A stretch of DNA of 44,828 nt from Clostridioides difficile (GTDB taxonomy: Bacteria; Bacillota; Clostridia; Peptostreptococcales; Peptostreptococcaceae), in NCBI RefSeq assembly GCF_900243075.1, contig NZ_OEZH01000036.1, forward strand, positions 1 to 44,828. Reading direction: 5' to 3'. Shown here piece by piece: positions 117 through 44,828 of this stretch. The notes under the pieces were generated by a model. It had not been told where the DNA came from and made no database searches. It saw nothing but the letters and a program-made list of their open reading frames with translations. Positions within the stretch are counted from its first letter, which is position 1; each line of letters begins with the position of its first letter. The translations under genes were made by a program, and so were the position numbers.

Positions 117-1325
117 TCAACCAAATATAATTGGACCTATTATACTAGCAAATGCCACTGATGCAATAGTTACAGTAACAAATCCCCCTATAATCATCTT
201 TGGTAACAAATAATCTGTTGCCCTTTGTTTTTCTTCTTCAGTTCCTTCCATAGCATCAATACCTTCATTAGAAATTATCTGTGTTGCTGGATAAGCAAGC
301 ATGCAAGTTACGCCAATTGCAGCTGACATTCTTGGAGAATATCCCAATAGCTTTCCTACAATTGCAGTAAATATTATTATGAATACAGAGCCTACAACAA
401 GTATTCCTATAGTTGGAACAATCATCCCAAACAATGCTGTTGGAGTTACCTTAGCAAGTCCTCCAGGTAACATTAACATACAACCAAACATTATAATTCC
501 ATTAGATTGAGATTTATCTAAAATTCCTTTTTCTAAAAAACCTATTCGTGTAAAAATCAATCCCACTAACAAACATGCTATGTTGGGATTTAAATAATAG
601 TTTGCAGGAGTAAATCCTGGTATTAAAGTAGCCAATCCTACAAAATTACCAATCATAGCAACAAATGAAAGCTTTGCAAGATACACTAGAGTAGATGATT
701 TTTTACCTAAATCTTCTTTAAAAATTCTCATGCTTGGAAGCTTAAAATTACTTTTTGATTCATCTTTTAAGAAATCTCCACTATCTCTTTTAAATTTTAA
801 TTCTTTATTTATACAATATGTAGTTATCGGAATACCAAAGAATTTTTGAAATGATAATACTAGAATTACAAATGCTGCAAGTTCAGGTCTATTTGCTGCT
901 TCTGCAACAGTTGTTACAATAATACCGGCAACAGTAGAACCTGCTATTGGAGGTGCTGCTATTAAAGCATACTCTCTACCAAATAACATACTACCTACTG
1001 TTAAACAACCAACCCCTATTCCTACAATACCTACTAATGCAATTACAACCGTTTTCCATTCATGACATAAGTCTTCAAGATTTATAAGTGTTCCTAAGTT
1101 AGTTATTAATAAAGCTATACCAAAGTTACTCATTGCAGCTAATATCCCTGATGCTCCTGTAATGTCTTTTGGTAAAATATTTGTCCAAAATCCTAGTAAA
1201 AATATAATACATACAAATAGCAATGTTGAAATTGCACCTTTTGTTTTCTTAGATAAAAACTCACTAAAAGCATAAATCATTACAGATACAGTAAAGCAAG
1301 TAAGCGGATTCCAAAAATTTTCCAT
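117..1325 (-). CDS. Multi-pass membrane carrier, possibly Na+/carboxylate (GltS-like or DUF3100-like)
   Basis: A 402-residue, strongly hydrophobic protein with about ten to twelve predicted membrane segments and a short polar stretch near residues 175-210. The glycine- and alanine-rich segments (IAAPPIAGSTVAGII at about 122-136 and GVTCMLAYPATQI near 338-350) resemble discontinuous helices of secondary carriers. Na+/glutamate symporters of the GltS type have about 400 residues and a similar layout, but I do not see a diagnostic motif, and an uncharacterised membrane family such as DUF3100 fits equally well. Start: ATG 1325 preceded by AGGAGGAAAC. A TATAAT box lies at 1372-1377 (complement) with no good -35. 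Instead a perfect inverted repeat (1391-1408) covers the -35 position, which suggests an activator. Substrate unknown. Confidence 0.6.
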   Translation of the reverse strand: MENFWNPLTCFTVSVMIYAFSEFLSKKTKGAISTLLFVCIIFLLGFWTNILPKDITGASGILAAMSNFGIALLITNLGTLINLEDLCHEWKTVVIALVGIVGIGVGCLTVGSMLFGREYALIAAPPIAGSTVAGIIVTTVAEAANRPELAAFVILVLSFQKFFGIPITTYCINKELKFKRDSGDFLKDESKSNFKLPSMRIFKEDLGKKSSTLVYLAKLSFVAMIGNFVGLATLIPGFTPANYYLNPNIACLLVGLIFTRIGFLEKGILDKSQSNGIIMFGCMLMLPGGLAKVTPTALFGMIVPTIGILVVGSVFIIIFTAIVGKLLGYSPRMSAAIGVTCMLAYPATQIISNEGIDAMEGTEEEKQRATDYLLPKMIIGGFVTVTIASVAFASIIGPIIFG

Positions 1326-1408: not shown

Positions 1409-2203
1409 ATATGGTATAGCTTGATATTTTTTGATGATATTTTATACGTCTTAAATTATTCCTAAAATACCTAAATAGATATAGCTATAGTTAACTCTTT
1501 AAATGTTGACTGTAATTATTAACTTACTAGATTTCTTTTTAATTTTTACTTTCTACATCATTTTATAAATGCAGAATTGTACTACAGCTATTTTCAATCT
1601 TAGTATACATGTTGGAAGACTTACATTTATTTAAATATTAAATATATAATGTATATTTATAAACGTCTTAAATTATTCTTAAAGTGCTTAAAATAAAATA
1701 ATAATGCACCCATTAAATTAATATTATCAGAATAAACTTCATTTTAAGTCTTCTCTATGTACAAACTTTATCTACTGGCGCATCCCCTCCTTTGTAAATC
1801 AGATTATTTCTAAGTGAATTTAGATATCTTATTCCCAGAAATTATTCCTAGAAACAAAAATCATTTATTATATTAAATCAATGATAAACTATACTTTAAA
1901 ACTCTTTCTAGATAAGTATAACTTATCATATAATGACGTCTATACCTTCACCTCAACAGTAGTCCTAAATTATTCTTAAATTAACAATAAAAATAATTTT
2001 GCTCCTTATAAAAACACTCGTTTTTATATTGTCAAACTATTCTTAACATAAATTATAATTTCAAACCTTTTCTTTGTCAATATATTCTGACATTTTTCCA
2101 GAAATTTTATAGATTTATCTGGTGAGTAAATCATACTATTTTTATGTAAGGAATAAATCATACTATGAACATGTCTAAATATTTACTTAAGTATAAATAT
2201 AAA
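1409..2203. repeat. Long gene-free stretch with four copies of a GTCTTAAATTATTCTTAAA-like motif
   Basis: No coding region could be supported in about 800 bases. Four imperfect copies of one motif, all in the same orientation, lie at 1448-1466, 1665-1683, 1962-1980 and 2031-2049. The copies at 1448 and 1665 agree over about 35 bases, including the following CTTAAA block. The 16-base core at 1667-1682 is identical to 18342-18357, just upstream of the LytTR response-regulator gene. The rest is AT-rich sequence without recognisable structure. A regulatory role is inference. Confidence 0.45.
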
Positions 2204-9826: not shown

Positions 9827-12521
<2,695 letters not shown>

Positions 12522-12541
12522 ATATTCCTCCCTTCAATAAA

Positions 12542-12602
12542 AAGAACCCAAGCATATATGTATAGAGTATTCCTCTATTTTTCACATATATACTTGAGTT
12601 CT
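12542..12602 (-). terminator. Leader terminator of the locus-B operon
   Basis: Long stem pairing 12542-12560 with about 12584-12602, followed on the minus strand by a T run just before the ribosome site. Its upstream arm overlaps the 3' side of the RAT element, so formation of the antiterminator would prevent this hairpin. Confidence 0.85.
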
Positions 12603-12625
12603 GCCTGCTAATCAGTAACATACTC
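12596..12625 (-). promoter_or_regulatory. RAT ribonucleic antiterminator
   Basis: The minus strand contains TGTTACTGATTAGCAGGCA flanked by complementary GAGT/ACTC ends, 30 bases in all. It matches the BglG/LicT target pattern (GTTACTG, loop, CAGGCA). It overlaps the leader terminator and lies upstream of the antiterminator gene, the standard position for autoregulated induction. Confidence 0.88.
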
Positions 12626-12683
12626 AAAATTATGACTACATCGCCATAATTAGAATTCTTTTTTGTTTAATTTTATATCCTAT

Positions 12684-42434: not shown

Positions 42435-42884
42435 CTACACTTCATAAAATATATCTAATATTTCTTTTTTTGTATGTGCATTTAAAAGTCTTTCACTTAT
42501 ATTTTTACCACCTAAAATGTAAGCTATTTTAGATATTAATATCATATCTTCATTACCTCCAGATTGTGGCATAGCAAACATAATTATTACCTTTACAGGT
42601 AAGCCATCTATACTTGGCCAATCTACACCTTTTTTAGATTTACCTATTACTACAGATGCCTTCTTTACATATTTTGTTTTTCCATGTGGCATGGCCATTT
42701 GATAACCTATACTAGTAGAGCCTATTTTTTCTCTATGTTTTAGTGCCTTTATAAACTTACTTTTTAAAGTTATACTTCCTGTATCGTATAATTTATCTAC
42801 TAATTCCTGTATTATGCCTTCTTTTGTAATTGATTTCAAATCTAAAATAATGCTTTCTTCTGTTAATATTTCTCTAATTTCCAT
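42435..42884 (-). CDS. PTS EIIA protein, fructose/mannitol class
   Basis: A 149-residue cytoplasmic phosphocarrier. The active histidine is His67 in YQMAMPHGKTKYVKK, and the domain fills the whole protein. This is the EIIA class of fructose and mannitol systems (also found at the C-terminus of PRD regulators), not the Glc-class EIIA required by the EIIBC of this locus. It overlaps the PRD regulator gene by 11 bases, so a role in phosphorylating that regulator is likely. Start: ATG 42884 after GGAGAAAA. Confidence 0.9.
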   Translation of the reverse strand: MEIREILTEESIILDLKSITKEGIIQELVDKLYDTGSITLKSKFIKALKHREKIGSTSIGYQMAMPHGKTKYVKKASVVIGKSKKGVDWPSIDGLPVKVIIMFAMPQSGGNEDMILISKIAYILGGKNISERLLNAHTKKEILDIFYEV

Positions 42885-44784
42885 TTGTTTTCTCCAGTAG
42901 ATTATTCTTAAATAATATTTTAATATCCTCTTTGCTCTTGCAATCTATTATATAGTTTATATAGTTCTTTTGCCTATATAAATTTGATATTTCCATTAAA
43001 ATATTCTTTAAAAAACTTTGATTACTAATTTCTAAATAAATATCAATCGTTCTATTAACATTATTGATATTCATTATCCCTTTATTTAATTTACTTTGCT
43101 TATGTATATATATATTTAAATCTTTTCCTAATGAAATAGATTCATATTTACTCCCTAAATTCACACCTATTAAACTTTCCATCTGAGCTACATCAAAATT
43201 AAAATATATATTATCTTCTAAATACATTCCTAATAAGTTTGTATCTAAGTTCATACTTTTTTTAGGTTTAGAAAGTAAAGCATTTTTTATATTATTAATA
43301 TCACTTTCCATTAATAGTACTGATACAACTATATGTAATTTATCTTTCAAATCTAAGTTTACAGTAGATATTACAAAGTCTACATCATCTAAATTTCGCT
43401 TACTCAACTGATGCATAGGAACTATATCAACTATAGTCCATTCAGGAAATTCTCTTTTTAATCTGGCTGCAAGGAGCTGAGATGTTCCATATCCTGTATG
43501 ACAAACTACTATTACTCTTTTACTACTCATATTTCTTTCTATTGCCGCTTGAAAATATGTGGCAAGATACGAAACTTCATCTATACTAATATTCTTCAAA
43601 CTATCATACTCTGGCATAATATTTATAGTCATCATACATAATCCCAGCACATCTGAAAATCGCTCTTGTATCTCTCCTAATAATGGGTTTTTTATTTGAA
43701 TATCATATCTTAATCTGTTTAACATAGGCCTTACATGAGATGCTAGACTTTTTTGTAGTAAGTCATCATTTTTGAGATTTATATTTAAAAATTGTGACAT
43801 ATTCTCTATCATTATAGATGAAACCTTTTCACTTTCACTTAATATATCTGATTCATCATTATAACTACTATTATTTTCGCTACTAAATCCAGATGATACA
43901 AAAAAAATATATATGTACATAATTTCATCTTTTGTTATTTTTACTCTGTATCTATTTTCTATTTTATCTATAAGTGTAGTGACATTTTGATATACTAACT
44001 CGTCCAAATTATCTACAGAAACTTCTCTTTCTTCTTGAGACTCTATTTGATTACCTTCTTCGATTCTCTTTAAACATATAAGTATATGGGTAATTAAATT
44101 TATATAGTAGGGCTGATTTATAGTATATCCTAAATTGTATTCTAATTCTGTAATTATAGTTTCTACAAATATAATAGAATCTATATCAAATAAATTTATC
44201 AATGCACTAAATGTAACAGAATCTAGTCTTGTTAACTCAGATATATCATCTTGTTCATAATTTTCATCTAATAAATCATCCATCATTTTGGCAATCGATT
44301 TCCTTATATCCACTTCTTTACCTATAATCTTAGTTCCCTCTAAAGTCTTATTAAGCTTTAAATTGTATTCTTTTATCCATGCCTCTATATATTTAAAATC
44401 ATTTACTATAGAAGTTTTACTTACATAATATTTATCTGCTAACTGATTTATTGAAGTTATATTATTTGAATTTAGTAATAAATACTTTAAAATCTCCATT
44501 CTTCTCTGCTCTACTGATAAAGATTTATTTTCCTTCGATTGTATATTTAAACTATTAATTAAGTCTATGTTCTTCTTTGCTAAATCTTCTATTAATATTC
44601 CATAGCCTCTTTTTATATCAATTTTTATATTAAAAGTTTCTAAATATCTCTCAATCATCTTCAAATCTTTTTGTAAAGTTTTATCAGATACATTTAATTT
44701 ATCTTTAAAGTATTTTATAGGTCTATATTTATTTTCGTTTAATCTGAACCTCCCATGACTAAAGTCACAGGGTTCCTGCTTCAT
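42874..44784 (-). CDS. PRD-containing PTS-regulated activator (LicR/MtlR type), 5' end replaced by an IS right end
   Basis: About 636 residues. A first winged helix is truncated at its start (from KYRPIKYFKDKLNVSDKTLQ), a second lies at about 93-155 (INQLADKYYVSKTSIVND), then PRD1 (His233), PRD2 (His350, ending SYLATYFQAAIERN) and a Gat-type EIIB domain with Cys428 in VVCHTGYGTSQL. The C-terminal 130 residues look like a degenerate EIIA without active histidine; a separate EIIA gene follows. Residues before about 14 are encoded by the right end of an IS200/IS605-like element. The start given is the ATG overlapping the tnpB stop (ATGA); ATG 44796 is also in frame. Neither has a ribosome site, so expression would depend on coupling to tnpB. 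Confidence 0.8.
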   Translation of the reverse strand: MKQEPCDFSHGRFRLNENKYRPIKYFKDKLNVSDKTLQKDLKMIERYLETFNIKIDIKRGYGILIEDLAKKNIDLINSLNIQSKENKSLSVEQRRMEILKYLLLNSNNITSINQLADKYYVSKTSIVNDFKYIEAWIKEYNLKLNKTLEGTKIIGKEVDIRKSIAKMMDDLLDENYEQDDISELTRLDSVTFSALINLFDIDSIIFVETIITELEYNLGYTINQPYYINLITHILICLKRIEEGNQIESQEEREVSVDNLDELVYQNVTTLIDKIENRYRVKITKDEIMYIYIFFVSSGFSSENNSSYNDESDILSESEKVSSIMIENMSQFLNINLKNDDLLQKSLASHVRPMLNRLRYDIQIKNPLLGEIQERFSDVLGLCMMTINIMPEYDSLKNISIDEVSYLATYFQAAIERNMSSKRVIVVCHTGYGTSQLLAARLKREFPEWTIVDIVPMHQLSKRNLDDVDFVISTVNLDLKDKLHIVVSVLLMESDINNIKNALLSKPKKSMNLDTNLLGMYLEDNIYFNFDVAQMESLIGVNLGSKYESISLGKDLNIYIHKQSKLNKGIMNINNVNRTIDIYLEISNQSFLKNILMEISNLYRQKNYINYIIDCKSKEDIKILFKNNLLEKTNGN

Positions 44785-44828
44785 AGAATTTTGCATACTA
44801 AAATATGTCTTACTAATTCTCCACAGGC
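44744..44828 (-). mobile_element. Right end of an IS200/IS605-family element
   Basis: The minus strand reads ...CCCTGTGACTTTAGTCATGG... then GAGGTTCAG, an imperfect subterminal hairpin and terminal motif of the type seen at IS200/IS605 right ends. It directly follows a TnpB-like C-terminus. The left part of the element lies outside the window. The junction with the PRD regulator gene is at about 44743/44744. Confidence 0.65.
44781..44828 (-). CDS. tnpB: C-terminal 15 codons of a TnpB-like protein (partial)
   Basis: The frame ends ACGELVRHILVCKIL then TGA at 44781-44783. The ACGE.VR block is characteristic of the C-terminal tail of TnpB proteins of the IS200/IS605 family. The remainder of the gene is beyond the window, so it cannot be judged whether the nuclease is intact. 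Its stop overlaps the ATG that opens the regulator frame. Confidence 0.6.
   Translation of the reverse strand, partial: ACGELVRHILVCKIL

Follow-up and report, generated by a model that had tools for sequence, protein, structure and literature searches.

The window analysed here is a stretch of 44,828 nucleotides of Clostridioides difficile, corresponding to positions 1–44828 of contig C60 (45615 bases) in a genome assembled as 187 contigs. Near its upper end, on the minus strand, lies the 3′ exon of a PRD-domain PTS regulator (42874..44743), which is recognized by its Pfam matches (PRD, Mga, HTH_11, and PTS_IIB) and lacks the first 12 codons of the gene plus two bases of codon 13. A PTS EIIA gene (42435..42884, minus strand; PF00359, E 1.6e-37) lies immediately downstream, overlapping the regulator’s end. 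On the far side of the exon, and reaching to a gap of Ns, are the last 85 nt of a CdISt1-type IStron (44744..44828, minus strand), ending in GGGAGGTTCAG. Elsewhere in the window, at 12521–12657 of the minus strand, a bglG/LicT-type cis-regulatory RNA element is matched at 131.7 bits.

The boundary between element and regulator was set by comparing ends within the genome. The 85 nt that end at 44744 are present 29 times in the genome, C60 included, and the 29 right ends are alike up to the point equivalent to 44744 and diverge past it, with flanks that all differ. The 3′ terminus of the IStron is TCAG, which is intact at the 44744 end, and its terminal G at 44744 is presumed to be the 3′ splice site. 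Past the window and beyond 124 Ns, C60 contains a match to PF07282 (63.7 bits; profile positions 1–50 of 60, broken off by the N gap), and thus the tnpB that an upstream extension had been expected to reveal. The family claim of an earlier, sequence-only reading is thereby borne out: the element is of the IS200/IS605 type, possesses tnpB, is inserted in the regulator, and has its right end at 44744.

The same reading drew attention to the frame that crosses this end, and its account of the letters was sound. An ATGA overlap is present at 44781..44784 of the minus strand, where an ATG (44784–44782) shares bases with a TGA (44783–44781). The frame opened by this ATG is free of stops across the last element base at 44744 and continues into the PRD regulator, whose own first residues are, as was stated, absent from the window. 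A 913-residue open frame on C60, which would amount to a tnpB–regulator fusion, was rejected because it reads through the 124 Ns.

The native start of the regulator and the site of insertion

The part of the regulator that is missing from C60 is found on contig C41. Here, GGTAGGGAGGGCTAAGT precedes an ATG that is followed by 12 codons and two bases ending in TTGAT, and this native start has a good ribosome-binding site (GGTAGGGAGGG). A left end begins right after the regulator’s TTGAT. The proposal that the regulator had lost its own start is therefore not supported, since the start sits before the left end on C41. When the contiguous gene of a relative was searched against the genome, it returned two pieces abutting at query positions 102/103 (C41:121-216 and C60:44425-44743), together with one further 30-base match that arose by chance. 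By this continuity of the gene, as opposed to an assembled join, C41 and C60 appear to be adjacent; a rearrangement between copies of the element is possible instead.

Comparison with strains that lack the insertion had been named as a way to see the native start. In all seven other genomes of the genus, the regulator is uninterrupted exactly across the insertion point, has its native start, and is without the insertion (0 of 7). The C. difficile records CD160 and HC132 are two of these seven relatives, G003 and G005, as shown by 3 kb without a difference. The native N-terminus in the relatives is MLVSRQIEFLKLIL (MLASRQ in G006), and the residues MKQEPCDFSHGRF of the earlier reading are encoded by the element. 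The insertion itself is precise, lies in the sense orientation after TTGAT in codon 13 of the regulator, and has occurred without target duplication. In the unspliced state, translation from the native start comes to a stop after 15 residues (MLVSRQIEFLKLIKK, then stop).

The element family and its group I intron

The regulator’s element belongs to a sizeable family. The count of 29 right ends is derived from 32 rows by removal of two remnants and a chance match on C145, and it retains the degenerate copy on C131, while a search using a left end as query gave 27 left ends (30 rows minus C70, at 75% identity, and two remnants). Contig ends are close to most of them: 27 of the 29 right ends lie within ~1.3 kb of one (the exceptions are C157 and C131), and 26 of the 27 left ends reach one within 329 nt. 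Every left end, including that of C41, is preceded by TTGAT and contains GTCAG at element position 55–59. Both ends were found in 17 of 19 loci fetched from relatives, where they are 782 to 1988 bp apart. One plasmid record of C. difficile and one Clostridioides phage record contain close copies of the element. The weakest matches in the genus are those of G006, in which one locus (G006:C1:1076000-1078900) has a diverged left end (77% identity across 142 query nt) and right end (88% across 32 nt).

Two of the excluded rows are 47-bp remnants (G000:C160:25951-26002, minus strand, and G000:C22:24770-24821) in which a left end is fused to a right end at their common GACTTTAGTCATG region, both following TTGAT. 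The remnant pattern has nine matches in six of the eight genus genomes when up to three mismatches are allowed, as compared to none for a reversed control. At the C160 site, G001 and G007 are of near-equal length and the other five genomes are ~40 bases shorter. These remnants are perhaps deletion scars, similar to solo LTRs.

The family resembles CdISt1 in many respects. According to PMC4227781, group A IStrons insert downstream of TTGAT, ATTAT, or TTTAT and terminate in TCAG, and CdISt1 is present in 9–24 copies per strain, the longest being 2213 bp. Self-splicing of CdISt1 is described in both PMC4227781 and PMC4430133. The structural features of group A are all found in the present family, namely the TTGAT target, TCAG followed by a variable 3′ flank, a 5′ group I intron, and tnpB (ORF B), along with the lack of target duplication and the many copies located mostly in genes, the match to CdISt1 being one of described features. 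The 27 left and 29 right ends slightly exceed the range given in PMC4227781.

The family also resembles the TnpB transposons of the IS200/IS605 group in its tnpB, in a TGACTTTAGTCA palindrome near both ends, and in its TTGAT target motif, and differs from them in that a group I intron fills its 5′ part. Four copies from relatives match the Rfam group I intron model (RF00028) at 66.8, 65.4, 59.8, and 56.9 bits, against a cut-off of 50. The first of these is a 782-bp copy without an ORF that was found by the whole-locus scan, which detected the intron in only one of 20 loci at E ≤ 0.01; the three other positive copies were missed by that scan and matched only as segments of ~500 bases surrounding the left end. 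The C. difficile genome under study shows the intron in part only: on C67 it is cut (26 bits, with none at E ≤ 1 in a second scan), and on C103, which was unmatched in the whole-locus scan, it is interrupted by a stretch of Ns. As for the regulator’s own copy, the assembly covers the first 120 nt together with the 3′ part, and the intron core falls outside it. Compared with three Rfam-positive copies, the 120 assembled nt on C41 show 3, 4, and 3 base differences.

A further group I intron is seen on C70 (C70:83365-83713, minus strand; 72.2 bits), ~75% like that of the IStron, and it adjoins a c-di-GMP-II riboswitch (77 bits; positions 1940–2025, minus strand, of locus L009). The pair is probably the c-di-GMP-controlled ribozyme already described in C. 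difficile.

Because the element family has a group I intron, which the sequence-only reading could not see, splicing rather than capture by tnpB is to be expected at the regulator. The reading we prefer, and regard as probable from the combined sequence evidence, is that a CdISt1-type IStron inserted in the sense orientation after TTGAT and that self-splicing of the whole element would restore the gene. Transcripts from the native promoter would pass through the entire element, and in the group I ribozyme the internal guide GUCAG would base-pair to UUGAU at the end of the exon. A U-G pair is usual at group I splice sites. The identification of GUCAG as the internal guide is a putative one, the pairing having been judged by eye. 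Excision of the element, with G 44744 as its last base, and joining of the exons would follow and bring back the native frame. Those transcripts that stay unspliced would yield the 15-residue peptide only, and a fraction of them may feed the TnpB guide RNA. Insertion site, orientation, and stop are observed at the regulator itself and the intron is observed in sibling copies; splicing and guide-RNA production in the regulator’s own copy are inferred.

The same IStron insertion might instead be spliced little or not at all, in which case the regulator would be inactivated, with its downstream frame dead or weakly made. We consider this unlikely. It gains some credit from the unassembled core of the regulator’s copy and from the upstream frame that ends after 15 codons, but the exon-pairing GTCAG is retained, the 120 nt of the 5′ end are within 3–4 bases of Rfam-positive siblings, and the TCAG at the 3′ end is intact.

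The open frame, tnpB, and the guide RNA

What had made the window’s end striking was the suggestion that the insertion places translation of the regulator under tnpB, through an ATG overlapping the stop of a 15-codon tnpB tail. Translation of the regulator would, in that case, start at ATG 44784, with coupling to tnpB and an altered N-terminus. The frame from this ATG is indeed open, but the proposal is highly improbable when it is set against the sibling copies. In all 23 copies examined for the tnpB stop (11 from the same genome and 12 from relatives), the stop is separated from the element end by 110, 117, or 126 nt, whereas TGA 44781 is 37 nt from it and closes a frame that differs from those implied by any of the three distances. 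In none of the 23 does the tnpB stop overlap the start of the captured frame. The 15-codon tail is thus not supported as the end of the present tnpB, and neither is the ATGA coupling, the tnpB stop of the siblings being elsewhere and in another frame; on C60 itself, the stop would fall in the N gap, its place being predicted from the siblings. Two copies of G007 have a shorter tail, and in these the frame that follows the tnpB stop joins the ATG frame, but only past further stops. The tail frame before TGA 44781 may resemble the C-terminus of longer TnpB proteins.

The overlap is, moreover, a feature of the family’s right ends, where it reads ATGA in 22 of 29 and GTGA in seven. The frame that follows extends for 100 codons or more without a stop at only six of the 29, three with ATG and three with GTG. 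All six share one insertion phase, in which the element splits a long host frame between the second and third bases of a codon, and the open frame at the right end results from this phase. Inspection by eye of the bases before ATG 44784 showed no ribosome-binding site, unlike the native start with its good one.

A plain, intron-less IS200/IS605 insertion, as might be supposed from a window that shows an IS-type right end only and in which an Rfam scan detected no group I intron, is very hard to credit, because at the family’s left ends, C41’s included, a group I intron begins.

The 20 nt that adjoin the element (44724..44743, minus strand) are the first of the 3′ exon, as fixed by the comparison of ends, and presumably form the guide part of a TnpB guide RNA. 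By the general rule, the guide of an IS200/IS605 TnpB is taken from the 3′ flank. The earlier suggestion of a guide drawn from 44743–44724 was accurate as to the interval, with which the flank opens, and plausible as to the role. Such a guide would match the empty site behind TTGAT. In the seven relatives, TTGAT plus the first 18 guide nt is present at the orthologous empty site in every case, with 1–3 mismatches, and in the genome under study its sole match is the element’s own end. Three more matches with three mismatches occur elsewhere, in G001, G003, and G005. A reversed control gives 0–2 matches per genome, so that it is their position, and not their count, that carries the empty-site evidence.

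A 2024 Science paper on IStrons reportedly describes competition between intron splicing and the making of guide RNA. The idea that the host message competes with the guide RNA, also put forward from the sequence alone, would fit that work. One could also imagine a switch, in which splicing gives the normal regulator and unspliced messages, where guide-RNA production has won, give an isoform from 44784. We hold this to be most improbable. If true, the isoform would have an altered first DNA-binding helix, and control of the sugar PTS would come to depend in part on TnpB activity.

The case is that of an ordinary IStron insertion broken by the assembly, in which the letters were read soundly and the mechanism wrongly. 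What looked like the capture of a gene at the edge of a contig disappears when the opposite flank and the sibling copies are taken into account.

Orientation and reading phase of the insertions

Insertions of the family favor the sense orientation, and this bias is real. At 18 of the 27 left ends and 21 of the 29 right ends, the sense frame reaches 60 codons or more and exceeds the antisense frame; the reverse holds for one left and one right end, and neither for eight left and seven right ends. In the 28 ORFs of the window, TTGAT occurs 84 times in the sense direction and 103 times in the antisense direction. Elements of the IS200/IS605 type prefer the lagging-strand template. Sense orientation was rejected as proof of selection for splicing, for this preference together with gene direction could suffice.

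With respect to reading phase, TTGAT holds a TGA, which renders one of the three phases impossible. Its sense occurrences in the 28 window ORFs are distributed accordingly, with 69 in frame, 15 in the second phase, and none in the third. Where the sense frame spans 60 or more codons, 12 in-frame insertions compare to 6 at left ends (7 with the regulator insertion) and 14 to 6 at right ends (C131 excluded from this test). The in-frame share is, if anything, below the expected 82% (p 0.06 for left and 0.15 for right ends). In PMC4227781, 64 of 118 intragenic insertions are in frame, and selection is suggested. The in-frame excess of group A can be explained without selection, which we intend as a caution and not as a refutation, given that our null is drawn from one window and that the count in PMC4227781 pools both groups. 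The regulator insertion provides one more natural test of IStron neutrality. Finally, a RAGATH-18 RNA match (59.9 bits) flanks an IStron copy of G007, at positions 409–480 (minus strand) of locus L138.
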